A DNA stretch of 64,000 nt from Natronosalvus halobius (GTDB lineage: Archaea > Halobacteriota > Halobacteria > Halobacteriales > Natrialbaceae), in contig NZ_CP099997.1 in the NCBI RefSeq assembly GCF_024138145.1, forward strand, positions 2,232,001 through 2,296,000, given 5' to 3'. Under the pieces are notes generated by a model. The model ran no database searches. It saw only the letters and a list, made by a program, of their open reading frames with translations, and was not told where the DNA came from. Positions within the stretch are counted from its first letter, which is position 1, and each line of letters starts with the position of its first letter. This document shows, piece by piece, positions 4,213 through 56,311 of the stretch. A program made the translations under genes and the position numbers.

Positions 4213-4803
4213 ATGAACGAGAAAACCGAAGAACTCCGAGACATCTTCACCAGCGTCACCGACGGCGAAGAGACCGTCACCGAATCCCAGGAAGACACCC
4301 GTGGATCGCTCGAGAAGGACGAGCGAACCGTCGAAGAGCGCCTCGAGAACGTGATCGCACAGATGCACGAACGCTACGGCTTCGAGACGCCGTTATCGGA
4401 GGCGGAGCTACAGACCGTCGCGAGACGCTACTACGAACGCGACGGTGACGACGAGATCGCCGCCGACCTCGAGGTCGAGCCACAGGACGTCTTCGAGGCT
4501 CGATGTGCGCTTCACCTCGTGGACGAGGGCGACGCCGACGAGATCGATCTGGTGGCGATCCGCGAACGGGACGAAGCCGACGCGACCCTCGCCGAGGAGT
4601 ACGACGTCGATCCAAAGACGATCCGGCGCTACCGCCTGGTCGCGGCCGCGAAAGCGGAATCGCGAGCAGCGAACGACCGCTACCGTGACGAGTTCGATAG
4701 CCTGCTGGCCGACTCGGAACTCGCCTCCAGGATGGCGAGTGACGTCCGGGAGGACGGCCTCGAGGATGCGACCGAGGGCATGGAAACGGACGTCTCCTTC
4801 TGA
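4213..4803 (+). CDS. Conditioned-medium-induced protein 4-like (Cmi4)
   Basis: The protein is 196 residues, highly acidic and predicted soluble. Its N-terminus (MNEKTEELRDIF, then ESQEDTRGSL) and overall plan match what I recall of haloarchaeal proteins annotated as conditioned medium-induced protein 4. The centre (residues about 55-155) is helical, with two stretches that look like repeated helix-turn-helix segments (ETPLSEAELQTVARRYYERD and DATLAEEYDVDPKTIRRYR). The second reads like the recognition region of a DNA-binding HTH, so a regulatory role is plausible but inferred. It has its own TATA box. Nothing in the neighbourhood defines a pathway. Confidence 0.7.
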   Translation: MNEKTEELRDIFTSVTDGEETVTESQEDTRGSLEKDERTVEERLENVIAQMHERYGFETPLSEAELQTVARRYYERDGDDEIAADLEVEPQDVFEARCALHLVDEGDADEIDLVAIRERDEADATLAEEYDVDPKTIRRYRLVAAAKAESRAANDRYRDEFDSLLADSELASRMASDVREDGLEDATEGMETDVSF

Positions 4804-4910
4804 TCGGTCACTCAGTACAGCTGTTTGCTTCTATTGACCACTCCGGACAGCTGTTTGATTCTGACCGCACCACGCCCGTGCAGTCCGATCCGCCCCCACC
4901 GAGCCGACGG

Positions 4911-4918
4911 TTTATATA
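4911..4918 (+). promoter_or_regulatory. TATA box of the Cas4-like gene
   Basis: TTTATATA lies 23-30 bases before the ATG at 4941. This is a strong archaeal TATA element and predicts a leaderless message. Confidence 0.75.
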
Positions 4919-4940
4919 GTAACACGCGGCCAGACCGCCC

Positions 4941-5678
4941 ATGTCACACGTCGCGTTCAGCGACCTCCGGACGGCAACCTACTGTCCGCGAAAGCTCTAT
5001 TACGCCCGCCGCAACGACGACCGCGAGCCTCCGCCAGGAGTCGCCGCCGTCCGCGGCCTCGCGACCCGATACGAATCCCTCCTCGTGGCGACCGACGAGG
5101 CGCTCGCTGCCGAACCGATCGAACTCGAGCCGTCCGTCTATCGCGCCAGCCTGTGTCGGACGCGCGATCGATTGACGAACGCCGCCGAGGAGACGCGGTT
5201 CCAGCCGCCGCCGGATCGCGACCACGAAGCGACGGCGGTAGACGGGAATCGGTGGAAGGCAACCTGTGACCCCGTCACCGTGGACGCCCTCGTCACCGGT
5301 CGAGAGTGCCGTGGTATCGTTCACAAAGTGTTGGGCGATCCGCTCGAACCGGCCCTCGTCTCCGCCGGCAAACCGCCCGACCAGGGCGTCTGGAAATCCC
5401 AGCGCGTCCACGCCGTCGCCGCCGCGAAGGCCCTCGCCTGGACACACGAACAGCGGGTCGGCGGCGCCTGGCTCGAGTATCCAGCCTACGGGGAGATCCG
5501 GTACGTTCCGATGACGACGCGCCGAAAGGCCGAGTATCGACGGGCGCTCCGAACCGTCCGCGAACTCGACGGGCCGCCGCCGCGACTCAGCAACCGCGAG
5601 AAGTGTACCGCCTGCGAGTACGCCGACACCTGTGGCGTCCGGACGCGCAGCCTCCGGTCGTTGCTGGGGTTCGGCTGA
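4941..5678 (+). CDS. Cas4/Dna2-like Fe-S protein with degenerate nuclease site
   Basis: This 245-residue protein follows the Cas4 plan. An N-terminal YCPRKLYY contains Cys15, and a C-terminal CTACEYADTC supplies Cys223, Cys226 and Cys232; together they would bind a [4Fe-4S] cluster. Between them is a RecB-type fold with Asp115 (TVDALV) and the helix SQRVHAVAAAKAL. In active relatives the next strand reads roughly E-x-K-x-G-K-P-P. Here the matching strand is ALVSAGKPP, so the Glu and Lys positions appear as Leu139 and Ser141. The protein may therefore be a DNA-binding or structural derivative rather than an exonuclease. No CRISPR array or other cas gene is present. Stand-alone haloarchaeal Cas4-like proteins are common, so this one need not belong to CRISPR immunity. 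Confidence 0.8.
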   Translation: MSHVAFSDLRTATYCPRKLYYARRNDDREPPPGVAAVRGLATRYESLLVATDEALAAEPIELEPSVYRASLCRTRDRLTNAAEETRFQPPPDRDHEATAVDGNRWKATCDPVTVDALVTGRECRGIVHKVLGDPLEPALVSAGKPPDQGVWKSQRVHAVAAAKALAWTHEQRVGGAWLEYPAYGEIRYVPMTTRRKAEYRRALRTVRELDGPPPRLSNREKCTACEYADTCGVRTRSLRSLLGFG

Positions 5679-5708
5679 CTCGAATCGGCGGTGAGAACGC
5701 GAGTGTCG

Positions 5709-6293
5709 TCAGTGAGCACCGAACCACGCCTCGATCTCGTCGGCGAGCGCCCCACGCCGGTGGATCGTCCCCGAGGCGACGTCGACGACGGTGCTCTCGG
5801 TGCCGGCCGTCTCGCCAGCCTCCAGGACGACGGCGACGGCCTCTCGCACCTCGGGATCGAGGTCGGCAGGACGGCGAACGCTCCCGCGGCCGCTGACGTT
5901 GGCACTCGTCGCCGTGATCGGCGTTTCGGCGCGTTCACAGAGACGGAGCGCGAGGTCGTGATCCGGAACGCGAATGCCCACGCGGTCGGTGCCGGCGGTG
6001 AGCACGTCGGGAACGTCCTCGCGGCGGCGACAGAGCACCGTCACCGGTCCGGGAAGAAACCGCGCCATGAACTGACGTTCGCGGTCGCTCGCCCGAACGT
6101 ACTCGAGGGCCGCCGGAACCGACGGAACGGCGAGCGAGATCGGCTTCGCTCGATCGCGGCGTTTGACCTCGAAGACGCGCTCGACGGCCTCGGGGTCGAG
6201 GGCGTTCGTCGCGAGGCCGTAGACGGTTTCGGTCGGGTAGACGACGAGGCGTCCGGTCCGAATGGCCGTCGCCGCTCGCTCGAGATCGGACAT
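5709..6293 (-). CDS. sua5: L-threonylcarbamoyladenylate synthase (Sua5/YrdC)
   Basis: This 194-residue YrdC-fold enzyme makes threonylcarbamoyl-AMP from threonine, bicarbonate and ATP, the first step of the universal tRNA t6A37 modification. The family signature is clear: GRLVVYPTETVYGLATNA near the N-terminus, then VKRRDRAKPISLAV, a conserved RxxxKP pocket, and ATSANVSG towards the C-terminus. The protein is short because it has only the YrdC domain. The start at 6293 (MSDLERAA) is chosen because the alternative upstream ATG adds eleven residues (PPTNRRSHTH) that family members lack. The second t6A gene, cgi121, lies about 5 kb away. Confidence 0.93.
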   Translation of the reverse strand: MSDLERAATAIRTGRLVVYPTETVYGLATNALDPEAVERVFEVKRRDRAKPISLAVPSVPAALEYVRASDRERQFMARFLPGPVTVLCRRREDVPDVLTAGTDRVGIRVPDHDLALRLCERAETPITATSANVSGRGSVRRPADLDPEVREAVAVVLEAGETAGTESTVVDVASGTIHRRGALADEIEAWFGAH

Positions 6294-6390
6294 GTGCGTG
6301 TGCGAGCGTCGGTTCGTCGGGGGCAAAAACGTACCGTCACGTGACGGCCGTCGGATCGACTAGCTCGACGATCGGTCGAGCGCTACGACG

Positions 6391-7941
6391 TCACTCGAGG
6401 TCCCGTTCTGCGGGCTCGAGGTCCTCGGTCGCCGGTCCCTCGAGCAGGGTCCCGTCGGGCGAAAATCGTGAGCCATGGCAGGGACAGTCCCAGGTGCACT
6501 CGCCGTCGTTCCAGTCGACGACGCAGTAGGTGTGCGTACAGATGGCCGACACCGCGTGGAGGTCGCCCTCGTCGTCGCGGGCGGCCGCGATCGGTTTCGG
6601 TCCTCGTCGCAGGACTCGGCCCTCGCCCGATTCGATCGACGCGACGGCCGGCGAGAGGAGCGTCCGCGCCCAGTCGGTGACGAACTGGCTCGCGGCGTCG
6701 GCGTTCTCGGTGAGCGTCTTCGGGAGCGAGGGCTTCGGGGTGAATCGAAGCGGGTCGAACGTCTCGAGCGCCCGTGGTGTCGGCGCGTCATCGGCGATGG
6801 TCTCGGCGAGTAGCTGTCCAGCGGCAGTGCCGTTGGTCATCCCCCAACCGCCGAACCCGGTCGCGACGAAGACGTGTTTCGCCCCCGGACCCGCGGGGCC
6901 GACGAACGGCACGGTATCGACCGAGACGTAGTCCTGCGTCGACCAGCGGTACTCGATCGACGCCACGGAAAAATGGTCGCGCGTCCAGCGGGCCAGTCGG
7001 CGGTACCGGTCGGCGGTCGAACCGCCCTGTCCGGTTTTGTGGTTCTCACCGCCGACTAACAACAGCGTCTCGTCGTCCCCGCGGTACGTGCGAACCGACC
7101 GGTACGAGTCGTCGTCCCGGTAGTACATTCCCTCGGGTGGCTCGTCCTGGAGCCTGACGCCCAGGACGTACGACCGTTTCGGGTACAGTCGGGTGAAGAA
7201 CCCAACCCGATCGAGGAGCGGAAAGCCGGTGGCGAGGACGACCCGGTCAGCCTGCACCGTCCCGTTCGGCGTTTCGACGCGTGGCTGGTTCCCCGGAGCG
7301 ATGTCGGTCACGCGCGTTCGTTCGTGAATGCGAACCCCATCCTTCGGAGCGAGCGCGCTGGCGAGGCCGAGCAGATACTTCCGCGGGTGAAACCAGGCCT
7401 GGTCGTCGAACTTGACGGCCGCCGCGGCGCGCTCGAACGGCGGCACCGATTTGACGAAAGACGCGGGGAGGCCGGCTTCCTGAGCGGCGTTGGCCTCCCG
7501 TCGGAATCCGTCGGGGTCGTCGCCGTAGCAATAGGACGGCTGGCGTTCGAACCCGCAGTCGATCTCGAGGTCGTTCACCCGCGACTCGATGGTGTCGATA
7601 GCGGCCTCGTTGACCCGGGCGTACGTCCGCGCCGTCTCCCGCCCGAACTCCCGACGCAAGTGATCGTACCGCAGGCCGTGCTGGCTCGTGACTTTCGCCG
7701 TCGACTTGCCCGTCACGCCAGATGCGATCCGGTCGCGCTCGAGGACGATCACCGACAAATCGCGCTCCCTGAGTTCGTACGCCGTCGAGAGGCCGGTGAT
7801 TCCGGCGCCGACGACGCAGACGTCGGCCGTCGCGTCACCCTCGAGCGCCGGGTAGGTCCCATCGGGGGTCGTCGCGAGCCACGGGGAGGTCGGTTCGCCG
7901 GGGAGGGTCTCGTCGTCGTGGAAGGATGGAGGCTCGACCAT
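6391..7941 (-). CDS. FAD-dependent oxidoreductase with C-terminal Rieske domain
   Basis: The 516-residue protein starts with a DAO-type flavin fold: the dinucleotide motif VVGAGITGLSTAYEL at about residues 42-56 and an acidic end of the second strand (VLERD). A typical glycine-oxidase-like body follows. The last 90 or so residues are a Rieske [2Fe-2S] domain with CTH and CPCHGS as the Cys-His ligand pairs. This architecture is known in bacteria and haloarchaea, where an amine or similar substrate is thought to be oxidised with electrons leaving through the Rieske centre. The substrate is unknown. The gene stands alone, convergent to nothing and followed by sua5 on the same strand after about 100 bases. 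Confidence 0.88.
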   Translation of the reverse strand: MVEPPSFHDDETLPGEPTSPWLATTPDGTYPALEGDATADVCVVGAGITGLSTAYELRERDLSVIVLERDRIASGVTGKSTAKVTSQHGLRYDHLRREFGRETARTYARVNEAAIDTIESRVNDLEIDCGFERQPSYCYGDDPDGFRREANAAQEAGLPASFVKSVPPFERAAAAVKFDDQAWFHPRKYLLGLASALAPKDGVRIHERTRVTDIAPGNQPRVETPNGTVQADRVVLATGFPLLDRVGFFTRLYPKRSYVLGVRLQDEPPEGMYYRDDDSYRSVRTYRGDDETLLLVGGENHKTGQGGSTADRYRRLARWTRDHFSVASIEYRWSTQDYVSVDTVPFVGPAGPGAKHVFVATGFGGWGMTNGTAAGQLLAETIADDAPTPRALETFDPLRFTPKPSLPKTLTENADAASQFVTDWARTLLSPAVASIESGEGRVLRRGPKPIAAARDDEGDLHAVSAICTHTYCVVDWNDGECTWDCPCHGSRFSPDGTLLEGPATEDLEPAERDLE

Positions 7942-7961
7942 CGTCTCGTCTCGATACTCGT

Positions 7962-45205: not shown

Positions 45206-45303
45206 CGAGTCTCGTTTCGTCGAACCGCACTCTTTGCGTTGGCCCGACGAGCGAGGGGGTGGAGTGACTGTCTCCAGGAATCGTTTCTCGAGCGAGCCGC
45301 TCA

Positions 45304-46008
45304 CTACCCACCGAGGAACTGCCGCCGGACATCGGGATCGTTCAACAGCACCTCGCCCTCGTCGACGTACCGGTTCTCCCCCTGGGCGAGGACGTAACCG
45401 CGATCACAGCGACGCAACGCGGTCGTCGCGTTCTGTTCGACGATGAGGATCGTCACGCCGCGGTCGTTGATCGCGTCGATGTGATCGAACATCTCGCCGA
45501 CGAGGTCCGGAGCGAGCCCTGCAGACGGCTCGTCGAGCAACAGCAAGGGCGGGTCGGGGATCAGCGCCCGCGCCATCGCGAGCATCTGTTGCTGACCGCC
45601 CGAGAGGTTGCCCGCCCGCTGGTCGAGGCGCTCCTCCAGGATCGGGAACTGCTCGAGGACCGCCGCCAGCCGGTCGTCCGGAAGGTCACCCAGCAGGTAC
45701 GCGCCGATGCGGAGGTTTTCCTCGACCGTCAACGACGGGAAGACGTTCTCGGTCTGGGGAACGTAGCCGACGCCCCGGTCGATGATCGCCTGTGGCTCCA
45801 GTCCGGCGACGTTCTCGTCGTCGAATCGAATCTCGCCGCCCATGTGCGTCGCCAGTCCCACGACAGCCTTCATCGCGGTTGATTTCCCCGCACCGTTGGG
45901 GCCGACGATCGCGACGTACTCGCCGTCGTCGACGTGGAGGTTCACCCCGTACAGCACCTGTAGCTCGCCATAACCAGCGTCCAGGTCGGTGAGTTCGAGT
46001 AAACTCAT
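45304..46008 (-). CDS. livF: Branched-chain amino-acid ABC transporter ATPase LivF
   Basis: The 234-residue ATPase has Walker A VGPNGAGKST, the Q-loop in GYVPQTENVFPSL, the signature LSGGQQQMLAMARAL, Walker B LLLLDEPSAGL and the H-loop region IVEQN. It hydrolyses ATP for uptake with LivG. The short length and the LivF-type YVPQTENVF segment distinguish it from LivG. Start ATG 46008, 75 bases after the LivG stop. Confidence 0.93.
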   Translation of the reverse strand: MSLLELTDLDAGYGELQVLYGVNLHVDDGEYVAIVGPNGAGKSTAMKAVVGLATHMGGEIRFDDENVAGLEPQAIIDRGVGYVPQTENVFPSLTVEENLRIGAYLLGDLPDDRLAAVLEQFPILEERLDQRAGNLSGGQQQMLAMARALIPDPPLLLLDEPSAGLAPDLVGEMFDHIDAINDRGVTILIVEQNATTALRRCDRGYVLAQGENRYVDEGEVLLNDPDVRRQFLGG

Positions 46009-46083
46009 CGCCCACCCCGTCGCGGTTCGCGTTCGGGCCTCCGTTCAGAGACGTGCTCGTGAAGTGTGTTCATTGTCCTGTTC

Positions 46084-46839
46084 TCACCCACCCAGGTACG
46101 CCTCGATGACGTCCTCGTGTTCCATGATCTCTGCCGGCGTCCCGGTCGCGAGGACCTGTCCGTCCGCGAGGACGACCAGGCGGTCGACCAGTTCGGTCAG
46201 CGTCTCCAGTTCGTGCTCGATGATGAGCAGCGTGAGACCGTCCTCGTTGAGCGCCTCGATGTGCGCGACGATCTCGTTCGTCAGCGACGGATTGACGCCG
46301 GCGAACGGCTCGTCGAGCATGAGCATCTTCGGGTCGAGCATCAGCGACCGGGCGAGTTCGAGGAGTTTTCGCTGACCCCCGGAGAGGGTGCCCGCGTACT
46401 CGTCGACCATCGTCTCCAGATCGAACACCTCGAGGAGTTCGAGCGCCCGGCTTCGGGCTTCGGCTTCGCGCCGTGTGCTCGCTCCCGTCCGTCCAACGGC
46501 GTGCCAGGCTCGCTCGCCGGGGTGATCGGGCGCCGGGAGGAGCACGTTCTCCTGGACGGTCAACGTCTCCAGTTCGCGGGTCCGCTGGAAGGTTCGGACG
46601 AGTCCCTGTCGTGCGAGGGCGTGGGGCGGGAGCGTCGTGACGTCCTCCCCGTCGAACGTCACGGTTCCGGCGTCGCTCTCGATGACGCTCGAGATGCAGT
46701 TGAACGTGGTCGTCTTCCCGGCGCCGTTCGGGCCGATCATACCGACGATTTCGCCCGCTTCGACCTCGAAGGAGACGCCGTCGACGGCGAGGAGGCTACC
46801 GAACGACCGGCGAAGGTCCTCGACAGTGAGCAACGTCAC
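46084..46839 (-). CDS. livG: Branched-chain amino-acid ABC transporter ATPase LivG
   Basis: The 251-residue ATPase has Walker A IGPNGAGKTT, the LivG-type insert RTFQRTRELETLTVQENV, signature LSGGQRKLLELARSL, Walker B LMLDEPFAGVNP and H-loop IIEHE. A 20-30 residue insert (PAPDHPGERAWHAVGRT) is typical of LivG. It starts at GTG 46839, overlapping the LivM stop (GTGA), so a longer in-frame extension is rejected. Confidence 0.93.
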   Translation of the reverse strand: MTLLTVEDLRRSFGSLLAVDGVSFEVEAGEIVGMIGPNGAGKTTTFNCISSVIESDAGTVTFDGEDVTTLPPHALARQGLVRTFQRTRELETLTVQENVLLPAPDHPGERAWHAVGRTGASTRREAEARSRALELLEVFDLETMVDEYAGTLSGGQRKLLELARSLMLDPKMLMLDEPFAGVNPSLTNEIVAHIEALNEDGLTLLIIEHELETLTELVDRLVVLADGQVLATGTPAEIMEHEDVIEAYLGG

Positions 46840-47885
46840 GACTCCACCCCCAGCCTGTCGGCGTCCCCCCAGAGTCCCTCCGGGCGGTACCTGATGATGA
46901 ACATCAACAGGAGTCCGACGAACATCAGCCGGATCGAGGCGAACTGGTCCTGGGTAATGAACGGAATCGCGTCGTTGAAGAATCGGGTGATCAGCTGAAA
47001 GCCCATGATAATCGCGAGCCCACCGATGACGCCGCGGTCGTTGCCCGCCCCGCCGATGAGCATCCCGACCCAGACGATGACGGTCACGTCGATGGTGAAA
47101 AAGCCCTCCGCGGCAGCGCCGTTGTAGAAGACCAGTAGCGCCCCCGCCAGTCCCGCGATGGCGGCACCGTAGACGAACACGGCGACCTTGTACCGGAACA
47201 CGCGCTTGCCGAGCGTCTCGGTCACCTGGTCGTCGGCGCGAATCGCGCGGAGGACTCGCCCGTACGGCGAGCCCGACAGACGACGGAAGACGCCGTAGAA
47301 GAACAACGCGAGCGCCGCGAAGATGAGGATCGTTGACACCAGCGCCGCGCCACCGCCAGCGTCGGTTGTCCCGGCGATCGGCCGCGGAACGCTGGTGAGG
47401 CCGACCGTTCCGCCGGTTACGTCGCGGAACGCGACGATCAACCCGTGGACGATTTCGGCGACGGCCAGCGTGACGATGGCGAGAAAGTCGTCGCGAAGCC
47501 TGAGCGTCGAGACGCCGATCAGGATGCCGAGCGCGGCCGCCGCGAGGACGGCGGCGACCACTCCGACCGGCCACGGGAATCCGAGCCCGACGGCCTGGTA
47601 CGGATCGTTCGCGGTCAGGATCGCCGCGGTGTAGCCGCCGACCGCGAAGAAAGCGACCGGGCCGAAGTTGACCAGCCCGGTGTGGCCGAACTGGAGGTTC
47701 AACCCGACCAGGATCATCGCGTACAGGAAGAAGAGAACGCCGACTTCGAAGAAGACGAACGAACCGCCCGGCGGCTGGACGAAGAGCGGACTCAGCAAGA
47801 ACAGCACCGAGAGCACAAGCAACGCGAATCCAGCGTGGACTGCGTCGATCGGTAGATTCTCGAGGCGGGTCGTCGGGGCGCTCAC
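46836..47885 (-). CDS. livM: Branched-chain amino-acid ABC permease LivM
   Basis: The 349-residue membrane protein has about ten hydrophobic segments and the family stretch LQFGHTGLVNFGPVAFFAVGG, which marks LivM/LivH-type permeases. STLRLRDDFLAIVTLAVAEIV is the cytoplasmic loop that contacts the ATPase. It starts at GTG 47885, overlapping the LivH stop (GTGA). The C-terminal end (YRPEGLWGDAD) is common for LivM. Confidence 0.93.
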   Translation of the reverse strand: MSAPTTRLENLPIDAVHAGFALLVLSVLFLLSPLFVQPPGGSFVFFEVGVLFFLYAMILVGLNLQFGHTGLVNFGPVAFFAVGGYTAAILTANDPYQAVGLGFPWPVGVVAAVLAAAALGILIGVSTLRLRDDFLAIVTLAVAEIVHGLIVAFRDVTGGTVGLTSVPRPIAGTTDAGGGAALVSTILIFAALALFFYGVFRRLSGSPYGRVLRAIRADDQVTETLGKRVFRYKVAVFVYGAAIAGLAGALLVFYNGAAAEGFFTIDVTVIVWVGMLIGGAGNDRGVIGGLAIIMGFQLITRFFNDAIPFITQDQFASIRLMFVGLLLMFIIRYRPEGLWGDADRLGVES

Positions 47886-48766
47886 GACGTCCGCACCTCC
47901 GCGTTGACGAGGCCGCCAGGACGAACGAGCAGGACGACGATGAGGACGACGAACGCCATGGTCGCGTTGAGTTCCGTCAGCCCGGACGGGAGAAACGCGA
48001 CGGAGACGGTGATGCCGATACCCAGCAGGTACGATCCGACGATGGCCCCGTAGGGACTGCCCGCGCCGCCCAGGATGGCGGCGGTGATGATCAACAGGAG
48101 CTGGCCGAAGCCCACGTTGGGATTGGCCGACTGCGAGACGGCGAGCATGACGCCCGCGACACCCGCTAGCCCGGAGGCTGCGATCCAGACCGCGTTTCTG
48201 ATTCGACGGGTGTCGATCCCGGAGACCAGCGCGAGGTCCTCGTTGTCCGAGGTCGCGCGCATCGCGATTCCGAGCATCGTCCGGCTGAGAAAGACGTGGA
48301 GGACGACGACGGCGACGAGCGTCACGCCGATGATGAACAGCTGTTGACTCGTGACGAAGAAGCCCCAGTCGTCGAAGCGGTACGTCGTGACGTCCCGGGG
48401 AATGGTCCGACGGTCCGCCCCCGCGATCACCCGGAACCCGTTACGCAAAACCAGGCCCAGACCGATAGACATCAACAGCAACGGGACGGCGCCCGCCTCG
48501 TTCATAGGTTCGAACGTGACGCGGGCGATGACCCAGCCGACGACCGCCGTGATCGCCAGGGCGACGGCGACGGCCATCGGGATCGAGAGACCGCCAAACA
48601 CGACGGCGAGATAGCCGACGAAGGCGCCGACCGTGATGAACTCGCCGTGAGCGAAGTTTATCATGTTGACGAGGCCGTACACCAGCGTAAATCCGATCGC
48701 GCCGAGGGCGATGTACGAACCGATAACCAGACCGAAGATGATCTCCTGTGCGAGTGGAATTTCCAT
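47882..48766 (-). CDS. livH: Branched-chain amino-acid ABC permease LivH
   Basis: The 294-residue membrane protein has eight or so hydrophobic segments, starting with GLVIGSYIALGAIGFTLVYG and NMINFAHGEFITVGAF, the LivH signature. LSRTMLGIAMRATSDNEDLA is the cytoplasmic coupling loop. It is the first permease of the operon, 18 bases after the binding-protein gene. Start ATG 48766. Confidence 0.94.
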   Translation of the reverse strand: MEIPLAQEIIFGLVIGSYIALGAIGFTLVYGLVNMINFAHGEFITVGAFVGYLAVVFGGLSIPMAVAVALAITAVVGWVIARVTFEPMNEAGAVPLLLMSIGLGLVLRNGFRVIAGADRRTIPRDVTTYRFDDWGFFVTSQQLFIIGVTLVAVVVLHVFLSRTMLGIAMRATSDNEDLALVSGIDTRRIRNAVWIAASGLAGVAGVMLAVSQSANPNVGFGQLLLIITAAILGGAGSPYGAIVGSYLLGIGITVSVAFLPSGLTELNATMAFVVLIVVLLVRPGGLVNAEVRTS

Positions 48767-48784
48767 AGATAGTTCTACGACTCG

Positions 48785-50146
48785 TCAGTACTCGTCGATC
48801 TCGTCCTGCAGTTCGTCGCCGCTGATAGTGAACTCCGTCTCGAAGCCGTCCGGCGTCACTCGCTCGACGACCACGTCGCCCCAGACGTTCCCGTGTTCGG
48901 TGAAATCGCAGTCCGTGACGGCACCCTCGTAGTTGATTTCGTCGCCGTTGTCGAGCGCGTCCTTTCCCTCGGCGAACGTCGTGACGGTCGTTCCGTCGGG
49001 GCGAGAAACCGCACCGATGCTCCGCTGAATAGCCTCGTGAGACGTCTCGCCGGCGTGGTGGATCGCCAGCGCGATGATGTTCGTCGCGTCGTAGGCCGCG
49101 ACCGCCCAGGGGTGAAGCCCCTCGTCGCTCACCTCTTCGTAACTCGAGAGGAACTGGTCGTAGTTCGGCCCCTCCGTACTGCCGGCGGCGATCCAGGCGC
49201 CGTCCGCCTGTTCGCCGACTTCGTCGATCAGGGAGTCGTCCCGGAGGCCGTCTTCCATCAGCAACTGTCCGCCGTAGCCGCCGTCCTCCCAGTTGCGGAG
49301 AATCGTGATCGCGTCCTCCAGGGCGAACGAGAGCGCCCATGCGTCGAAGTCGTTGCTGAACAGTTCGTTCAACTGGCTCTGATACGACGACTGCCCCTCG
49401 GACGCCGAGATAACCTCGACGATTTCGCCGCCGAGTTCCTCGTACCAGCTGGTGAACTGCCGCGTCCAGCCCTCTTCGCCGGCGCTCGTGGCGCTGAGGA
49501 TTGCCATTCGCTCTACGCCGGCCTCGTCGATCATCGCCTCCGCAGCGCCCGCCGTGTGGACCGTGTCGCCGATGACGGTTCGCCAGAGCCACTCGTCGTC
49601 GTCCGTCTCGTCGGTTCCCTTGTCCCCGCCTCTGGTGTCGAGATACGTCGACCCCGGCCACGGCGTGATTATCGGGACCTCCTGTTCCTGGATGAACTCC
49701 CAGAGCGGTTCGATCTCGCTGGAATACAGGCCGTTGATGGCGGCCACGCCGTCGCTATCGATGAACTGCCTCAGTACTTCGCGAGCCTGTTGCGGGTCGA
49801 CCGTGGTGTCCTGGCGGTTGACCTCGAACTCGGCATCGAGCGGCCCACCAGCGTCGTTGATCTGCTGTACCGCCAGGTCCGTCGCGTCGGAGGCGGCCGG
49901 TTGCAGGAAGTCCCACGTGCCAGTCAACGACCCTGGCTGTCCCACCACGACGGTGTCGGGCGTCTCACCGTTACCATTGCCGCCATTGCCGCCGTTGCCG
50001 CCGTTGCCGCCGTTGCCGCCGTTACCTCCGTTTCCGTCGTCTTCGGTCCCGATACAGCCGGCGAGGCCGACCGTCGTCAGTGCGCCCGTTCCAGTGATCG
50101 CCAGAAAGGTTCGGCGATCGGTCCCGACCGTCTCCTTGCGTGACAT
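48785..50146 (-). CDS. Substrate-binding lipoprotein for the Liv transporter
   Basis: The 453-residue protein starts with a Tat signal (TDRRTFLAITGTG) and lipobox Cys (VGLAGC) near residue 31. A linker of about 25 residues built from Gly-Asn-Gly repeats follows, then a type 1 periplasmic-binding fold (TVVVGQPGSLTGTWDFLQPA...). The fold fits branched-chain or other amino-acid receptors. It is the first gene of the Liv operon. Upstream on the same strand is a TATA-like element (50189-50198 on the minus strand) and a palindrome. Start chosen at 50146 because it puts the Tat motif at the right distance. Confidence 0.92.
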   Translation of the reverse strand: MSRKETVGTDRRTFLAITGTGALTTVGLAGCIGTEDDGNGGNGGNGGNGGNGGNGGNGNGETPDTVVVGQPGSLTGTWDFLQPAASDATDLAVQQINDAGGPLDAEFEVNRQDTTVDPQQAREVLRQFIDSDGVAAINGLYSSEIEPLWEFIQEQEVPIITPWPGSTYLDTRGGDKGTDETDDDEWLWRTVIGDTVHTAGAAEAMIDEAGVERMAILSATSAGEEGWTRQFTSWYEELGGEIVEVISASEGQSSYQSQLNELFSNDFDAWALSFALEDAITILRNWEDGGYGGQLLMEDGLRDDSLIDEVGEQADGAWIAAGSTEGPNYDQFLSSYEEVSDEGLHPWAVAAYDATNIIALAIHHAGETSHEAIQRSIGAVSRPDGTTVTTFAEGKDALDNGDEINYEGAVTDCDFTEHGNVWGDVVVERVTPDGFETEFTISGDELQDEIDEY

Positions 50147-50164
50147 TCTTTCACAACCCTCTCT

Positions 50165-50198
50165 GGTGCGTATCGATACCAGGCAAGCATAAAAGTAT
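50165..50198 (-). promoter_or_regulatory. Liv operon promoter with GTATCGATAC palindrome
   Basis: On the minus strand a TATA-like ACTTTTATG (50190-50198) lies about 25 bases before the expected start. Between it and the gene is the 10-bp palindrome GTATCGATAC (50170-50179), with CTGGT/ACCAG half sites nested around it. A repressor site is plausible; not proved. Confidence 0.45.
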
Positions 50199-50527
50199 TG
50201 CTCAGGTCGATTCGCCCGACAGGACAACGACTGCAGTCACCTGCATCGACGCGACCGCCCTTCGTCCAGGTCGGCCGCCGACGGCGAGACCCGATCCAGG
50301 AGGACGGAACAATGGCAGTCAGCGGTGAATGGTCGGTTCTCGAGTGTCTGTCAAACGTGACTGGTTCACCCCCCCCCCCTCCCCCGAGCGGGCCCGAGGC
50401 GCCCGGGTCGTCCGCTTCGTTCGCCCTCCAGGACGGAGCTCACGATCCCGAGTTGAGTCTCCAACCGTTCAGCCGCGTTCAGCGACGCCGATCGACAGCG
50501 AGGAGGTCGAACGCGGGAAGAACGGGA
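50199..50527. other. Region between the Liv operon and the island
   Basis: No gene was recognised. It contains a run of eleven C (50369-50379), a T and five more C, then a GC-rich stretch. An open frame from the island's second gene runs antisense through here to 50366 without any sign of selection. Confidence 0.5.
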
Positions 50528-50572
50528 GGCCGGCTCAGATTCGAACCACGGTCGTGTCGAAGCCGTTCCCTT
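50528..50572. repeat. tRNA-Pro 3'-end copy C (island border)
   Basis: The first 19 bases (GGCCGGCTCAGATTCGAAC) equal the T-loop/acceptor end of tRNA-Pro on this strand. The next 26 or so (CACGGTCG and onward to TCCCT) match copy B at 54842-54886 with three mismatches over 45 bases. It is the far border of the island. Confidence 0.9.
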
Positions 50573-50845
50573 ATAGGCGCTTTCACCTACCCTGTAGAAG
50601 AGAACATAATCCCCACTACTCATCTGTCCGAACGTCTGTGTATTCTGCTCTCCACCCGCAACTCCCCAACCCTGTGCTGAAGCAGGAACCTCCGATTGCC
50701 GTTCTGACCACTTTGAAAGATCCACAGGAGACTGCACAGGGGAGTGAAAATCATCGCCGTAGTTCACTTCCCCAGCATCGATATCGTCTCGTTCCGATGA
50801 AAGGCCAGGCCCATCGGCACCAGCAACGTTCACTACAGAAACCAT
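50572..50845 (-). pseudogene. Truncated partner gene of the restriction enzyme
   Basis: The frame starts ATG 50845, nine bases after the restriction gene's stop, so it was in one operon with it. About 90 residues look real, including AQGWGVAGGEQNTQTFGQM followed by SSGDYVLFYRVGESAYKG. I compare this to the start of EVE/PUA-like or other modified-base reader domains used by restriction systems; that is uncertain. From residue 92 the frame enters repeat C and continues as repeat-encoded sequence (TASTRPWFESEP), then meaningless sequence to 50366. The gene is thus cut at the recombination border and has lost its C-terminal domain. Confidence 0.6.
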
Positions 50846-50853
50846 ACAAATGA

Positions 50854-53800
50854 TTACTTGATAACCTTCAAGAAACTCTCCAAGTACTCTTCAACCTCCT
50901 CGCGGTGATCTTCTACACCATACAATTCGTACACAGCACTATTCAGGTTCTCTTCTGCATTGCTGATTGTAGACTCCAAATCCTCGATATCTTCTGTGAG
51001 ACCTGCCTGTTCCTCACGGAACTCGTCGAGATCCGATGGCAACGACAGATCCCGCAACTGTCCACCAGAGACATACTCATCACCGAATTCCTTTAGGAAG
51101 TCTGTGAGATCGCTCGCAGTTTCCTCATCTTCTAGCTCAACCCGATAGTACCGATTCAGTTTGACCTCGGTACCGTCCTGCTCAATATTGTAGGACTTGA
51201 GGCTGTACCGGTCATGACTGTCTACGACTGATTTAACAAACGTCCGGAATGGCACCGTGTCCCCCCGCTCCTCAAAGGTTTCCATCAGCGTGGCCCGGTC
51301 GTATCGAATAGCCTGAATGTCACGCTTTGCCGTGTGTAGATCCTCTGAGTACCCACTAACCCGATCACGCTCATCGTCGTTAGAGACGTAAATCGGCAGA
51401 TGAGTCATATGGGATGTTCGGCATTCAATCGCGGGTGCGTGCCGGAAGGACAGATGCTCGTAGTAGGCCTTGTAGTAGAAATCCAGAAGCTCACTGTTCA
51501 GTAGCCCACAAATGTAGTACGGGTCGTTGATTGAGCCCTGTGCAGTGAACTGCCCAAGCGTGTTGTTCGACCCCCCGTTGAGGAGGATGAAGTACGCACG
51601 CTTGTTGTAGTACCGAACCCTATCGGACGGATCATCGACAGCGAACGTGAGTTCCGGCGCAGCAGCACGGTACGCGATTCTCGTCTTGTTCTGGAATACG
51701 TCGAGTTTGGATTCCGAGATGTTTGTATCGATAGTATGGTCGTCTAAGTCTGATTCCATCGTATCGATATCGACGTACTCGTTGACGTCCGGCTGTTCGT
51801 CACCGAGGTAGAACTTGTTCAAGTTCGATCCGGTGATTACGGGGACGCCATTGCTTTTGTTGGTCAGGTACTCACGGTAATAGCGTGGTTCTTCACCGCG
51901 ACTTGGCGGGCCACCCCGACCGCCGCCATCCTCCAGTGTCGGGCAAATATTCTTGAGAGGAACACAGTCGTCTGTGTCCTCCATTTCCTGAACTACATCC
52001 CACAGGTCGTCCGTGATCTGGTAGTTCAGCTTCAGCACGTCAGCCCAGTCGCTCCAGTTCTCAGTGAAACGGTTTTGGGCTACTGTGTACGTGTCGTACG
52101 TATCTTCGTTCGTAACGTCGGGGTACTCATCGCTTTCAAAGTTATCCTCAAAATCGTAATCCGACGGTTCGTCACGCCACTCGATTATTTCTGATGCGAC
52201 GTAATCAAGCGCGTGCCCCCACTCGTTGGTTTCCTTGCTTCCCTTCGGGTAGATCTTCGCGACCTGCGTTTCGTTTTCTTCGCGCTCCTGCTCGTACTCG
52301 TCGCCACTCCGCTTTGTTAGGACAATCAAGATCGGGAAGACGTTGACGTCTATCCCGAAGATTTTGCAGCGGGTGAGGTCACCGACGAAATCGATCGTCG
52401 CGTTGTCCAGCATGAACTGCATCGCATCTTCAGACGCGTCGGTAACAAGCAGTTTGTTCGAGATAACGAACGCTAGTCGCCCCCCATCGTCAAGCCATTC
52501 GAGGGCCTGTTCGATGAAGGCTAGGAAGATGTCGCTTTGTTCGTCACCAAAGGTATCGTGGAGCGAATCATATTCCTCACTAACTCTCGGGTCTTGGTTG
52601 TGCGTGCGTACGTAAGGTGGATTCCCGAATACCCACTCGTAGTCGTCTTCTTTCGCTTCGATGATGTTGTCCAGGTTCTCTGGGTCGTTTTCTCTGGCTC
52701 GATAGAACCGATCTTTGTCTACCTGCCCGGTTTCCTTCACCGTAAGCAGGGAATCGGTCTCATAGGTGCTAAACGACGGCATTTCAAGATGAGTATTACC
52801 CCCACTTCCACTGTATCGTTCCTGAAGCACCCGAATCAGGAGATTGCTTTGGGCGAGCTGAACTGCAAAGGGGTCAATGTCGAACCCACGCAGTTTCTCA
52901 TTAATCACTCCAATCGCTTCCAGGAAGTCATCATCTCGAGTAAAGTCGTAGCCACTGTCCTTCAGCGACCCAATTACCCTACTCATCGCCTCCAACACGA
53001 ACGTCCCACTACCGCAGGCCGGGTCAAGCACTTTGTCCCCGGCTCGAGCAATGTTGGACTCTTGGGTAGTGAAACCGGAGTAGTCCATCAAGAAGTGGAC
53101 CGCCTGCGGCGGTGTGTAGAACGCACCGAGGCGTTTCCGTTTCTCGCTGTCCAAACACTGCTGGTACATCTCTCCGAAGATGTCACGGTCGATATCCCGG
53201 AAGTTGAAGTTGTCAAATCGTCGAAGAACGGTCTTGAGAACGTCCTCTTCGTAATGGTACCAGTCATGCGGTGTGTCTCGCCGGAAGAGCGGCGAGTAAA
53301 CTTCCTCTGCTTGGCGAGACGCTGTCGTGAGTGGTTCTGTATACTTGTTGTTCCGCAGTTGCACTTTCTCGTCGAAGAACTTGATGAAGCCATCAGAGAT
53401 GACCTGGCCGATTATACCCAGGTCTTCGAAGGTGCGAATGAGGAGTAAGCGGTTGTAGAGGACGTTGAGAGTCTGGAGTTGGAACGTCTCTCGAATCTCC
53501 TCTTTATCCGATTTACTTGCGCTTTCGTAGTCCTTGCCGGTCAATACAAGCCATTCCTGCCACTTGTCGTGCCAATCTCGGGAGTGTACGTACTCCGACT
53601 TTAGTTCTGAGACGTCATTTCGGAAGCCGATGAGTTCCTCACGGAATTCACCCGCTCTATCGATCCATTTTCCCTCGTTGAGGTTGCTTGAAGAAGCTGC
53701 TCCGTCGAGATGGTCTTCGTAGTCGAACTGTAAGTCCTCTGCGAGTGTGTCGATCGTATCTCGGTAGGGTTCCCAGTCGATGTAGTCGCGATATTCTTCT

Positions 53801-54492
53801 CTAAGTTTCTCGCGTTTCTCATCGATGTCATCGAGTTCTTCCTCGAATTCCTCGTACTGGTTTTGGTAGGCAGTAAATCGCCGTTGGATAGAAGGGAACA
53901 AATCTTCATTGAGCGCCGCGCGCGACGCCTTTATGAATTCTTGGAAGATCCCATCGTTACTGATATTACGCTCACTGGGGTGATCGTTCCATTCACCACT
54001 ATACGTTTGCATGATGCGGGTTTCGAGTTGTGCAGCAGTACGTTCGACACTATCACTGTTGGTGTTCTGGTAAACCTCGAGGAGATCAAGTTCGAGTTCA
54101 GAAGCGGGAGAGTCGTATTCGTTGCTGAAGAAGATGTACCGTCCATCGGTTGCCAGAATGTATTTGAGTTTGAGTTGGTCGTTGTAGATGCGGGCCTCTT
54201 CGATAGCCTGCTCGATTTTGTATCGAGGGTTGTCCTCACTCCGGTCTTCGTCCCAGGGTTTCTTTAGCTCACCAACGATTCGAGTGATACCATCTTTGTC
54301 GCTCCAGACGAAGTCTGGCCGATCACCCGACTCGATAATTTCTTCATAGTCTGCATGCTCTAACCCGAGTTCCTTTAGGATCGGGACGCCATAGTTCTTG
54401 GCTGCGGTTTCCTCACCAAAGTTGGGATCTTCAACGACTTCGTCAAAATCGTCAGGTAAGTGTTCAGAGATAGATTCCGAAAGTTCACTCAT
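50854..54492 (-). CDS. Type IIG restriction-modification enzyme (single-chain)
   Basis: The 1212-residue protein holds all three functions. The N-terminus has a PD-(D/E)xK nuclease: Pro59-Asp60 (GDRPDFVW) and Glu75-Leu-Lys77 (VGELKKPW). After a helical region, the N6-adenine methyltransferase has LDPACGSGTF (residues about 489-498), FDIDP and NPPYVRT (624-630), plus the family block RLGAFYTPPQ. The C-terminal third (for example YICGLLNSELLDFYYKAY) is the target recognition region. It therefore cuts and methylates by itself. Base composition is clearly A+T-richer than the surroundings, a sign of transfer. ATG 54492 (MSELSESISEHLP) is chosen; a TATA-like AAAGTATGA sits about 28-36 bases before it. 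Confidence 0.92.
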   Translation of the reverse strand: MSELSESISEHLPDDFDEVVEDPNFGEETAAKNYGVPILKELGLEHADYEEIIESGDRPDFVWSDKDGITRIVGELKKPWDEDRSEDNPRYKIEQAIEEARIYNDQLKLKYILATDGRYIFFSNEYDSPASELELDLLEVYQNTNSDSVERTAAQLETRIMQTYSGEWNDHPSERNISNDGIFQEFIKASRAALNEDLFPSIQRRFTAYQNQYEEFEEELDDIDEKREKLREEYRDYIDWEPYRDTIDTLAEDLQFDYEDHLDGAASSSNLNEGKWIDRAGEFREELIGFRNDVSELKSEYVHSRDWHDKWQEWLVLTGKDYESASKSDKEEIRETFQLQTLNVLYNRLLLIRTFEDLGIIGQVISDGFIKFFDEKVQLRNNKYTEPLTTASRQAEEVYSPLFRRDTPHDWYHYEEDVLKTVLRRFDNFNFRDIDRDIFGEMYQQCLDSEKRKRLGAFYTPPQAVHFLMDYSGFTTQESNIARAGDKVLDPACGSGTFVLEAMSRVIGSLKDSGYDFTRDDDFLEAIGVINEKLRGFDIDPFAVQLAQSNLLIRVLQERYSGSGGNTHLEMPSFSTYETDSLLTVKETGQVDKDRFYRARENDPENLDNIIEAKEDDYEWVFGNPPYVRTHNQDPRVSEEYDSLHDTFGDEQSDIFLAFIEQALEWLDDGGRLAFVISNKLLVTDASEDAMQFMLDNATIDFVGDLTRCKIFGIDVNVFPILIVLTKRSGDEYEQEREENETQVAKIYPKGSKETNEWGHALDYVASEIIEWRDEPSDYDFEDNFESDEYPDVTNEDTYDTYTVAQNRFTENWSDWADVLKLNYQITDDLWDVVQEMEDTDDCVPLKNICPTLEDGGGRGGPPSRGEEPRYYREYLTNKSNGVPVITGSNLNKFYLGDEQPDVNEYVDIDTMESDLDDHTIDTNISESKLDVFQNKTRIAYRAAAPELTFAVDDPSDRVRYYNKRAYFILLNGGSNNTLGQFTAQGSINDPYYICGLLNSELLDFYYKAYYEHLSFRHAPAIECRTSHMTHLPIYVSNDDERDRVSGYSEDLHTAKRDIQAIRYDRATLMETFEERGDTVPFRTFVKSVVDSHDRYSLKSYNIEQDGTEVKLNRYYRVELEDEETASDLTDFLKEFGDEYVSGGQLRDLSLPSDLDEFREEQAGLTEDIEDLESTISNAEENLNSAVYELYGVEDHREEVEEYLESFLKVIK

Positions 54493-54840
54493 GACTTGTT
54501 CCTTCCACCAGACCAGTATCATACTTTCCCTGTCGCCCTATCATCGGCTAGTTCGCTGGCTCTGGTTCCATGTCCGGATACGTGTATCAGTGTTCAAGCA
54601 TTCGGGTTTCGTACTCGTTACGCCGGTCGACAATATTGGTGACAGTTCCGGTACTGCCAGCAACATCGACGTCTGCAACAACCTCCAGCCGTTGTCGGCT
54701 CGACGGAAAACGTATAACTGCTTTGACCACTCCACAGCACTGCAAATAGAATTAAAACCAACCGTGGGCGCGATAGCAGTGCGAAACCCGTCGACATCTG
54801 GGCGGTTACAGGCGGCACCAGAGTGCGGGAAACCGAAAGT
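54493..54840. other. Island sequence before the restriction gene
   Basis: About 350 bases with the promoter of the restriction gene at its left end and no recognisable gene. Composition is like the rest of the island. Confidence 0.5.
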
Positions 54841-54841
54841 G

Positions 54842-54886
54842 GGCCGGCTCAGATTCGAACCACGGTCGCGGCGAAGCCGCTCCCTG
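54842..54886. repeat. tRNA-Pro 3'-end copy B (inner border)
   Basis: It starts one base inside a 20-base match (54841-54860) to tRNA-Pro's 3' end and continues as the same 45-base unit as copy C. An exact inverted partner of its T-loop part, CAGATTCGAA at 54850 against TTCGAATCTG at 54888, follows 28 bases later. Confidence 0.9.
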
Positions 54887-54963
54887 ATTCGAATCTGCGC
54901 GGCTGCATTTCTCTACCTCACGGACGACTCGCTCCGCTCGTCGTCGTTGTTCGGTGGGAGAAA

Positions 54964-55036
54964 TGGGCCGGCTCAGATTCGAACTGAGGTTACGGCCACC
55001 CGAAGGCCGAAGGATACCAAGCTACCCCACCGGCCC
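54964..55036 (-). tRNA. tRNA-Pro (anticodon CGG)
   Basis: Read on the minus strand from 55036: acceptor GGGCCGG pairing with CCGGCCC, discriminator A, D-arm GGGGTAGCTTGGTATCC, anticodon stem CGGCC/GGCCG with loop TTCGGGT giving anticodon CGG, and T-arm CTCAG-TTCGAAT-CTGAG. 73 bases without encoded CCA and without an intron. All stems pair. It decodes CCG and is the attachment target of the neighbouring island. Confidence 0.96.
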
Positions 55037-55061
55037 GCAATCGAGTCGAGGCCCGCCGACA

Positions 55062-55068
55062 GTTTAAC
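55062..55068 (-). promoter_or_regulatory. TATA element of tRNA-Pro
   Basis: On the minus strand GTTAAAC lies 26-32 bases before the 5' end of the tRNA, as expected for an archaeal tRNA promoter. Confidence 0.6.
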
Positions 55069-55087
55069 GCTTGCGAATGGGTCCGGT

Positions 55088-55612
55088 TCAGGAGACTCGC
55101 GCCCCGAGCGTCTCACAGATCGCGGCCAGCTGGCGACGGGTCTCCGCCAGCGAGCCGGAATTGTCTACCCGGTGGTGAGGTTCCGCTGGTGGCTCGAACT
55201 CCGACTCCAGGAGCTCGTAAACGGCGAAGTCGGCGTCGCTCTCGTCACCCTCGCGTTCCGCGATACGCGTGCGAACGACGGACGTGTCACACTCGACGCG
55301 AACGAGTTCGAACCGGGCGTCGGCGTCGTCGGCGACCGCTCGCGCCCGTTCGCGGAGAGGTTCCCGGCGGAAGGTCCCATCGACGACGGCGACGCCGTCG
55401 CGCTCGAGCGCCCTGGACGCGCGGGCGAGCGTCGCCTCGTAGGTCGTCTGCGTCTCCGTCTCGGTGTATTCCGGGTTGGGGAACCGATCCTTGCGCACGA
55501 CGTCGGTGCGGACGAGGTCCGCCTCAAGTCGCTCCGTGAGGTCTGACGCGACGGTCGTTTTTCCGGTGCCGGGGAGCCCGCAGACGACGACGAGACGCTT
55601 CCGTTCGGACAT
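55088..55612 (-). CDS. P-loop kinase-like ATPase
   Basis: The 174-residue protein is of the small-molecule kinase type with Walker A GLPGTGKTT (residues about 12-20) at the N-terminus. It has a lid-like RTRIAEREGDESDADF and a DGTFRREPLRERAR segment resembling zeta-toxin/gluconate-kinase-like AAA_33 proteins. The phosphate acceptor is unknown. Start 55612 (MSERKRLVVVCGLPG) is fixed by the Walker motif position. It follows the tRNA on the same strand. Confidence 0.85.
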   Translation of the reverse strand: MSERKRLVVVCGLPGTGKTTVASDLTERLEADLVRTDVVRKDRFPNPEYTETETQTTYEATLARASRALERDGVAVVDGTFRREPLRERARAVADDADARFELVRVECDTSVVRTRIAEREGDESDADFAVYELLESEFEPPAEPHHRVDNSGSLAETRRQLAAICETLGARVS

Positions 55613-55708
55613 TTCGGGTTCGGTGAGTGAATGGGACGGAGGGGGTTTGGCCTTTGCGCTTCGATACGGGCCCAGAGGCGTCCCGTTCACGACGACTCGC
55701 AATGGCCC

Positions 55709-56311
55709 TCAGATCCGCTCGTAGCCCTCGGTGTCGAGGTAGTGGTGCACGACGGTGATCGCCTGGTCGGCGTGGAGCAGCGTCGGTCCGAGTCGGAGTC
55801 GTTGGTCGGCCGCCTCGGCCAGCAGGTCGGCCTCCTCCTCGGTGAAATCGTGATGATCCGAGAGGACGAATGTGGGGTCGGCGAGCGATTGTAGATCGGC
55901 GTCAACGACAGGATCACCGTCCTCGTGGAGTTGAATCACCGGGCCGTCCCCGGCGACTGCGTCGAGCGTCTCGGCGAACCCGCGTCGGTAGAGTTCGACC
56001 CCGGGGCTCGGCTCGGCGGGCAGCGCACCGATGGCCCCCTCGCGGTGGTCGAGGGCAGTCCGGACCAGCGCAGCCGTACTTCGCTCGTCGGGGTTGAGGT
56101 TCCGGAGGTCACTCCCGTCGAAGGTGATCGTGTAGGTGTCCTGGACGACGAGGTGGACCCGGACGTCGGTGCGGATGCCGTGTGAGGTGACGAACGCGGC
56201 GGTAATCGATCGACAGAGGGCATCGAGTCGGCCGGCGCCGCCGGCGAGGTCGTCGAGCGAGAAGTCGGCGTCGGTGGGGACGTCGTGGGCGATGAGGACG
56301 AACTGGCGCAT
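55709..56311 (-). CDS. trmY: tRNA pseudouridine(54) N1-methyltransferase TrmY
   Basis: The 200-residue SPOUT methyltransferase methylates pseudouridine 54 of archaeal tRNA at N1 using S-adenosylmethionine. It begins MRQFVLIAHDVPTDADFSLDD and has HGIRTDVRVHLVVQDT. The C-terminal trefoil-knot segment is FVLSDHHDFTEEEADLL, then LGPTLLHADQAITVVHHYLD. Length and sequence match haloarchaeal TrmY. Start at 56311 chosen for the standard MRQFV start. The kinase gene lies about 100 bases downstream. Confidence 0.95.
   Translation of the reverse strand: MRQFVLIAHDVPTDADFSLDDLAGGAGRLDALCRSITAAFVTSHGIRTDVRVHLVVQDTYTITFDGSDLRNLNPDERSTAALVRTALDHREGAIGALPAEPSPGVELYRRGFAETLDAVAGDGPVIQLHEDGDPVVDADLQSLADPTFVLSDHHDFTEEEADLLAEAADQRLRLGPTLLHADQAITVVHHYLDTEGYERI

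Follow-up and report, generated by a model that had tools for sequence, protein, structure and literature searches.

A restriction-modification island in the repeat unit behind a haloarchaeal tRNA-Pro gene

Introduction

Three copies of the 3' end of one tRNA-Pro gene lie close together in the genome of Natronosalvus halobius, in the 64,000-nucleotide stretch of DNA analysed here (the window), and two of them, B and C, enclose a restriction-modification gene. One insertion at a tRNA gene gives two copies, and the locus therefore raises the question of where the third one comes from. An earlier note on this DNA had suggested either two nested integrations at the tRNA or a cassette between B and C that can move separately.

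Results

The three tRNA-end copies delimit two different intervals

The motif GGCCGGCTCAGATTCGAAC has exactly three exact matches in the window, at 50528 (C), 54842 (B) and 54966 (tRNA-Pro). In shuffled sequence it occurred 0.05 times on average and never three times, which rules out a chance origin of the repeats.

54964..55036, minus strand: intact tRNA-Pro(CGG), called by ARAGORN, with the exact motif at 54966; its positions 54-73 are the duplicated stretch.
54840..54859, minus strand: copy B, an exact match to tRNA positions 54-73 (the stretch as defined over the 98 units described below).
50528..50545, minus strand: copy C, the tRNA-Pro 3' end with the exact motif, followed by the ancestral host flank, which is common to the same-genus genome G002.

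The copies described in the earlier note are real, and it had placed them correctly to within a base. Copy B lies 124 bp from the tRNA-Pro copy, and B and C are 4,314 bp apart. B and C are identical at 43 of 47 positions, over the right half of the unit's hairpin and the tRNA end; the earlier figure of 45 bases with three mismatches holds for the first 44, but not for the full repeat. As the nested or separate-cassette idea had implied, the interval from the tRNA to B and the interval from B to C are two different things. What had not been noticed is that the former, 124 bp long, is itself a structured repeat unit.

A folded unit ends in a copy of its own tRNA

54840..54963, minus strand: tRNA-tail unit (~124 bp) behind tRNA-Pro, ending in copy B; the same anatomy is found behind tRNA-Pro in most of 30 relatives, and behind 16 isotypes.
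54907..54963, minus strand: hairpin 1 (ATTTCTC..GAGAAAT), an inverted repeat whose sense strand folds better (95 units, p 1e-7).
54848..54899, minus strand: hairpin 2 of type 1 (GATTCGAATCAGGGAG..CGACCGTGGTTCGAATC), with an inverted T-loop bit on its 5' side; covariance model R1, 70.7 bits, with covariation across the family.

On the tRNA strand, the order is tRNA end, hairpin 1, an inverted bit of the tRNA end, hairpin 2 and a second tRNA end (the distal copy). Units are about 100-185 bp in size and gene-free, and the commonest hairpin 2 consists of GATTYGAATCAGGGAG, a variable stem and CGACCGTGGTTCRAATC. Across 98 units, the duplication covers tRNA positions 54-73 and nothing more, with an identity of 0.84-1.00 inside it, at shuffle level on its 5' side and near shuffle level on its 3' side. 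In 99 single type-1 units from 16 isotypes, which were picked by a pattern so that conservation of the pattern letters themselves is no evidence, the distal copy differs from its own tRNA by 0.77 mismatches in 19; at positions 9-19 of the copy the value is 0.70, against 5.83 with shuffled partners. The flanking letters, and a survey of the own genome that used tRNA-end duplication alone, are independent of this pattern. The duplication is tRNA-specific.

The inverted bit also matches the unit's own tRNA, over 9-10 nt and including the purine at position 57, and such a match needs either pairing selection or palindrome-guided correction. In the window, by eye, the inverted bit resembles the tRNA-Pro of other genera, while the tRNA and copy B agree with each other; this one case fits a unit derived from outside that duplicated its target. 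Separately, in many units the T-loop palindrome of the distal copy has an additional base at its centre, both at the tRNA-Pro loci of relatives (TTCGACATC, TTCGTAATC, TTCGATATC and TTCGCAATC; L007-L032) and in the own genome (TTCACAATC and TTCACGATC; L332, L337, L354).

Hairpin 2 varies in a way that preserves its structure. In 25 ungapped sequences 92.7% of the structure is paired, compared with 84.1% after shuffling, and 53 cells are double-changed, compared with 20.4; covariation reaches 0.282 against 0.130 in shuffles, and slid structures stay at or below 0.09. Over 96 hairpins 2, folding is stronger in the tRNA sense (-23.2 kcal/mol) than in the antisense (-15.1 kcal/mol; Wilcoxon p 1.8e-17), and part of this bias can be traced to a single conserved G-U pair, and to positions with a conserved G or A, in each unit. 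Hairpin 2 also has invariant unpaired G/A positions. The bias of hairpin 1 is smaller, again favouring the sense strand, and that of 20 unit bodies from the own genome, folded without the distal copy, is weak (p 0.06). The folded form is thus likely a single strand of the tRNA sense, a fold compatible with a trailer RNA and with single-stranded DNA alike. Reading the conserved internal loop as a bulge-helix-bulge intron or a kink-turn was tried by eye and rejected, since no register fits.

Open reading frames at window positions 50366-50845 and 54398-55546 extend across units, where they translate to RPAQIRT or similar. In haloarchaeal genomes, frames of this kind, antisense to a tRNA, may have been annotated as proteins.

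Units follow tRNA genes across Halobacteria

The core shared by B and C has matches in 37 of the 293 genomes of the order, and most of those in the 30 genomes whose flanks were examined lie directly behind tRNA genes, of many isotypes. Most regions downstream of tRNA-Pro in 30 genomes (the own one included) show the unit anatomy, with several unrelated hairpin-2 types occupying the same place. Nearly all matches listed in an exact scan for CGACCGTGGTTCRAATC, with one genome per species over 84,980 species, come from Halobacteria; among these listed matches, most of 83 places have a same-strand tRNA upstream, mostly 70-130 nt off. Tandem arrays of two to four units occur.

The covariance model of the type-1 hairpin 2 has matches in 99 of 116 Halobacteriales genomes (completeness at least 95%; an even but partial sample of the order), in 42 of 44 genera and with up to 20 per genome. 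A phylum-wide draw of 147 genomes gave matches in 24, all from this order, and none outside it. Nearly all model matches with examined flanks lie behind a tRNA in the same orientation. The exceptions comprise a contig end (L290), matches that were not recovered for reading (L292 and several more), one orphan (L402) and a small number that show additional units or spacing; at L391 no tRNA was called, yet a tRNA-end copy lies 101 nt upstream. Family f17 (genera g45 and g54) mostly lacks the type-1 hairpin 2, although it is nearly always present elsewhere in the order. At L303 (G042) and L304 (G032), two consecutive tRNA-Asp genes are each followed by a unit of their own, apparently through joint duplication of tRNA and unit.

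When any hairpin type is allowed, 20 of the 42 tRNAs of the own genome are followed, about 80-185 nt further on, by a copy of their 3' end, and several hairpin-2 types coexist; the downstream copy score of the remaining 22 is at chance level. We could not find an order-wide tRNA-tail repeat family described in Rfam or the open-access literature. Rfam 15 gave only tRNA at ten unit loci and nothing above threshold in window 50000-56000, and the open-access papers searched described only ordinary partial tRNA duplications.

Some tRNA-Pro genes carry no unit, as in G001, G017 and G028. Starting directly behind the tRNA or within a few bases of its end, the flanks of these empty sites align with the flanks beyond the distal copy of filled sites, at 119/142 (G028-G035), 114/142 (G028-G010), 62/70 (G017-G010) and 102/117 (G001-G010) identical positions. 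Such clean alignments indicate that insertion or loss of a unit is precise to the tRNA end. In the same-genus genome G007 (L005, L086), hairpin 1 is kept behind tRNA-Pro and the rest of the unit is gone, and units thus also decay piecewise.

The island lies in the distal copy of a resident unit

50528..54841, no strand: island of 4,314 bp, made up of cargo and a single 47-bp repeat; G002 lacks it, and two syntenic blast matches to that genome overlap by exactly the repeat; GC about 51%.
50546..50574, minus strand: island-borne half-hairpin (AGGGAACGGCTTCGACACGACCGTGG), the right half of another hairpin 2 that has diverged; part of the 43/47 repeat and different from the hairpin common to B and G002.

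G002 matches the window at 45286-50574 (92.3%) and 54842-56065 (88.9%), two matches that overlap by exactly the 47-bp repeat. With the same flanks and one 47-bp copy, this genome provides the empty site with a single copy that the earlier note had proposed to look for in close relatives, and confirms that B-C is a separate foreign insertion. The proposal that each copy marks an island integration at the tRNA did not hold for B, which ends a ~124-bp unit of the kind found behind tRNAs across Halobacteria without restriction genes. A widespread intergenic repeat, named in advance as an observation against the island reading, is indeed what copy B is. Since B belongs to such a unit it is not an island scar, and we discarded B and C as a plain pair of tRNA-Pro island ends, as many other tRNAs, too, are followed by units of the B type. 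The three tRNA-end copies are instead explained by an island that landed in a resident unit already holding the second copy.

In its right half, the hairpin 2 of G002 is the same as that of B, and the flank in G002 corresponds to that of C. Junction B thus consists of host hairpin, core and island flank, and junction C of island half-hairpin, core and host flank, a make-up that places the crossover outside the tRNA, within the 27-nt core (CGACCGTGGTTCGAATCTGAGCCGGCC) of the distal copy of the unit. The island's half-hairpin carries AGGGAACGGCTTCG and its flank CACTTTCGG; tRNA-Pro itself is untouched. Among the units examined with their flanks, only that of the window holds a full gene, the others being gene-free. 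In the flank beyond C, a C-rich run (cccccccccctccccc, window 50369-50385) is missing from the matching stretch of G002.

50854..54522, minus strand: intact Type IIG-like restriction-modification gene, 1222 aa; Pfam Eco57I (2.5e-22), N6_Mtase (2.4e-17) and TaqI_C (1.3e-6), PADLOC IIG (2.4e-30).
50567..50845, minus strand: accessory gene with about 93 residues left, truncated at the C junction, the frame continuing as junk to 50366; homologs have 163-292 aa.

The B-C segment is A+T-richer than its surroundings, as had been judged by eye (GC 49-53%, compared with about 65%), and at about 51% overall the restriction-bearing segment is foreign. Its 1222-aa product joins an N6-adenine methylase and a specificity domain in one chain (Eco57I, N6_Mtase, TaqI_C), has the BseCI methylase as its closest solved relative by sequence (E 1.6e-11) and falls below every NCBIfam cut-off. 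Near residues 70-90 in its N-terminal part lies a D..ELK motif that looks nuclease-like by eye, with no Pfam nuclease match. From its domains, the protein is predicted to be a single-chain, Type IIG-like restriction-modification enzyme. The only close orthologs of the gene in the sample, at 67%, are in G146 and G081, with no tRNA within 1.5 kb, and no other sampled genome has the gene behind tRNA-Pro. Homologs of the accessory gene occur in 42 of the other 292 genomes, and most extend well past the break; as this gene is cut at the right end of the island, part of the island's history is not site-specific.

The absence of an integrase from B-C, already remarked upon, was borne out by the open reading frames and Pfam matches of the segment. 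For the resident integrase acting in trans that the earlier note had suggested, the own genome offers 13 Phage_integrase matches, none of them linked to the site. An autonomous element with unit ends was found neither in phages and plasmids, nor in the insert at L193, nor in a scan of 20 kb behind 20 tRNA genes of the own genome, which gave no distant tRNA-end copy (one of the 20 was unscorable). Hairpin 2 had no match in phages and plasmids, which for one 44-nt query of one type is weak evidence. As an attP of known viruses it was rejected: ten viral contigs matched exactly, and only L063 has a unit, behind tRNA-Glu.

In Haloterrigena salina (L193, about 4732-7950 on the reverse strand), tRNA-Val is separated from its unit by an insert that has its own tRNA-end copy and carries an ATPase gene and an integrase-like ORF fragment (by eye, no Pfam match). 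This insert beside a unit yields three tRNA-end copies by an ordinary route. We considered it as an integrase-bearing element with the same ends and dismissed it, its right end being different from hairpin 2.

Discussion

On balance, we lean towards an account in two layers. The units would be small, mobile but non-autonomous elements whose insertion at the 3' ends of tRNA genes duplicates positions 54-73, and which fold as one strand, that of the tRNA sense; the precise empty and filled sites and the tandem arrays speak for this layer. A 4.3-kb island bearing the right half of a hairpin 2 and a tRNA-Pro end would then have entered the resident unit by recombination at its distal copy, within the shared 27-nt core, leaving junctions B and C. 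Since the cargo of the island includes a restriction-modification gene but not a recombinase, we infer one acting in trans, with homologous recombination over the short core as the fallback, and an att-bearing island integrated in this way fits best. Landing in the unit leaves the tRNA intact, and the units may serve as landing pads. Against this account, neither an autonomous element with these ends nor a responsible enzyme came to light, the island ends on the right in a broken gene, islands are rare among the units examined, and a simple insertion leaves the 9-10-nt match of the inverted bit unexplained. More tentatively still, and with rather more doubt than conviction, Halobacteria may hold order-wide folded mini-elements or RNAs behind up to half of their tRNA genes, which end in their own tRNA's positions 54-73 and act as replaceable landing pads where cargo, for instance a restriction-modification gene, can enter with no harm to the tRNA.

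It is less probable, though worth serious attention, that the unit is a functional pre-tRNA trailer RNA under selection (for processing or protection, or as an sRNA with a tRNA-like end), whose second tRNA end pairs with the inverted bit and whose site the island merely used. The tRNA-sense folding, compensatory changes and invariant unpaired G/A positions speak for such an RNA, as do the constant orientation of units close behind the tRNA, a copy that stops at the mature tRNA end, N73, and an inverted bit that tracks its own tRNA. However, clean empty tRNA-Pro sites occur patchily among congeners and 22 of 42 own tRNAs do without a unit; units stand in tandem, unrelated hairpin-2 types share one place, the strand bias is weak once the distal copy is left out, and single-stranded DNA of the same sense would yield the same signal. 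That the units are instead collapsed attL/attR pairs of former integrative elements, with B-C as a decayed provirus or integrative plasmid, we regard as improbable. Haloarchaeal integrative elements are known to make partial tRNA duplications (PMC3119063), and at L193 a gene-bearing insert with an integrase-like fragment and its own copy does lie beside a unit. Nevertheless, a uniform size, a two-hairpin anatomy and one hairpin-2 type in 42 genera and 16 isotypes are a poor match for independent collapses, and the L193 insert has a right end that does not resemble hairpin 2.

For the restriction segment alone, another route would be homologous recombination with DNA of another haloarchaeon, in which the segment already followed tRNA-Pro and its unit, with no site-specific step. 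The broken accessory gene at C, which shows an illegitimate step, and the right flank of B (CACTTTCGGTTTCCCGCA), which by eye resembles sequence behind tRNA-Pro elsewhere, would agree with this route. We nonetheless hold it to be unlikely, given that the match to G002 picks up again on either side precisely at the 47-bp repeat and that no sampled genome has such an arrangement of gene and tRNA.

Whether they represent very small mobile elements dedicated to tRNA genes or a general layer of tRNA trailer biology, the units are new to us. For island calling in haloarchaea, they imply that many partial tRNA copies mark no island. The window itself offers a case of a defence gene integrated into a unit instead of a tRNA.

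Haloarchaeal proviruses and integrative plasmids leave partial tRNA duplications that enclose many kilobases of genes (PMC3119063). The units resemble the duplications described there in having a tRNA 3'-end copy downstream of an intact tRNA, but they measure about 100-185 bp, contain no genes, are folded and occur at up to half of the tRNAs. They are like MITEs in being short, gene-free, repeated, hairpin-forming and flanked by a target duplication; unlike them, their target is always a tRNA 3' end and the duplication always positions 54-73.

Integron attC sites are imperfect palindromes with conserved basal boxes, unpaired conserved bases and a variable terminal stem, of which one strand folds. 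The strand bias and covariation of the units point to a similar one-strand fold with a variable terminal stem, although their core is GTTCRAAT in 98/98 units (the first letters being part of the search pattern) and not GTTRRRY. In contrast to integron cassettes, no gene-bearing arrays were seen among the units examined, only that of the window holding a gene. The 1222-aa protein in turn resembles Type IIG enzymes related to Eco57I and BseCI, with an N6-adenine methylase and a TaqI_C specificity domain in one chain.

In CIME-like islands, cargo lies between direct att-like repeats with no recombinase inside, and such islands accrete in tandem at tRNA genes. B-C is alike in its flanking direct att-like repeats (43/47 between B and C), in the single-copy empty site of a relative (G002) and in the lack of recombination genes (ORFs, Pfam), and its third copy towards the tRNA recalls tandem accretion. 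It differs in having landed not in the tRNA but in the distal copy that ends a structured unit, and in that its att-like repeat is made up of half a hairpin and a tRNA end.
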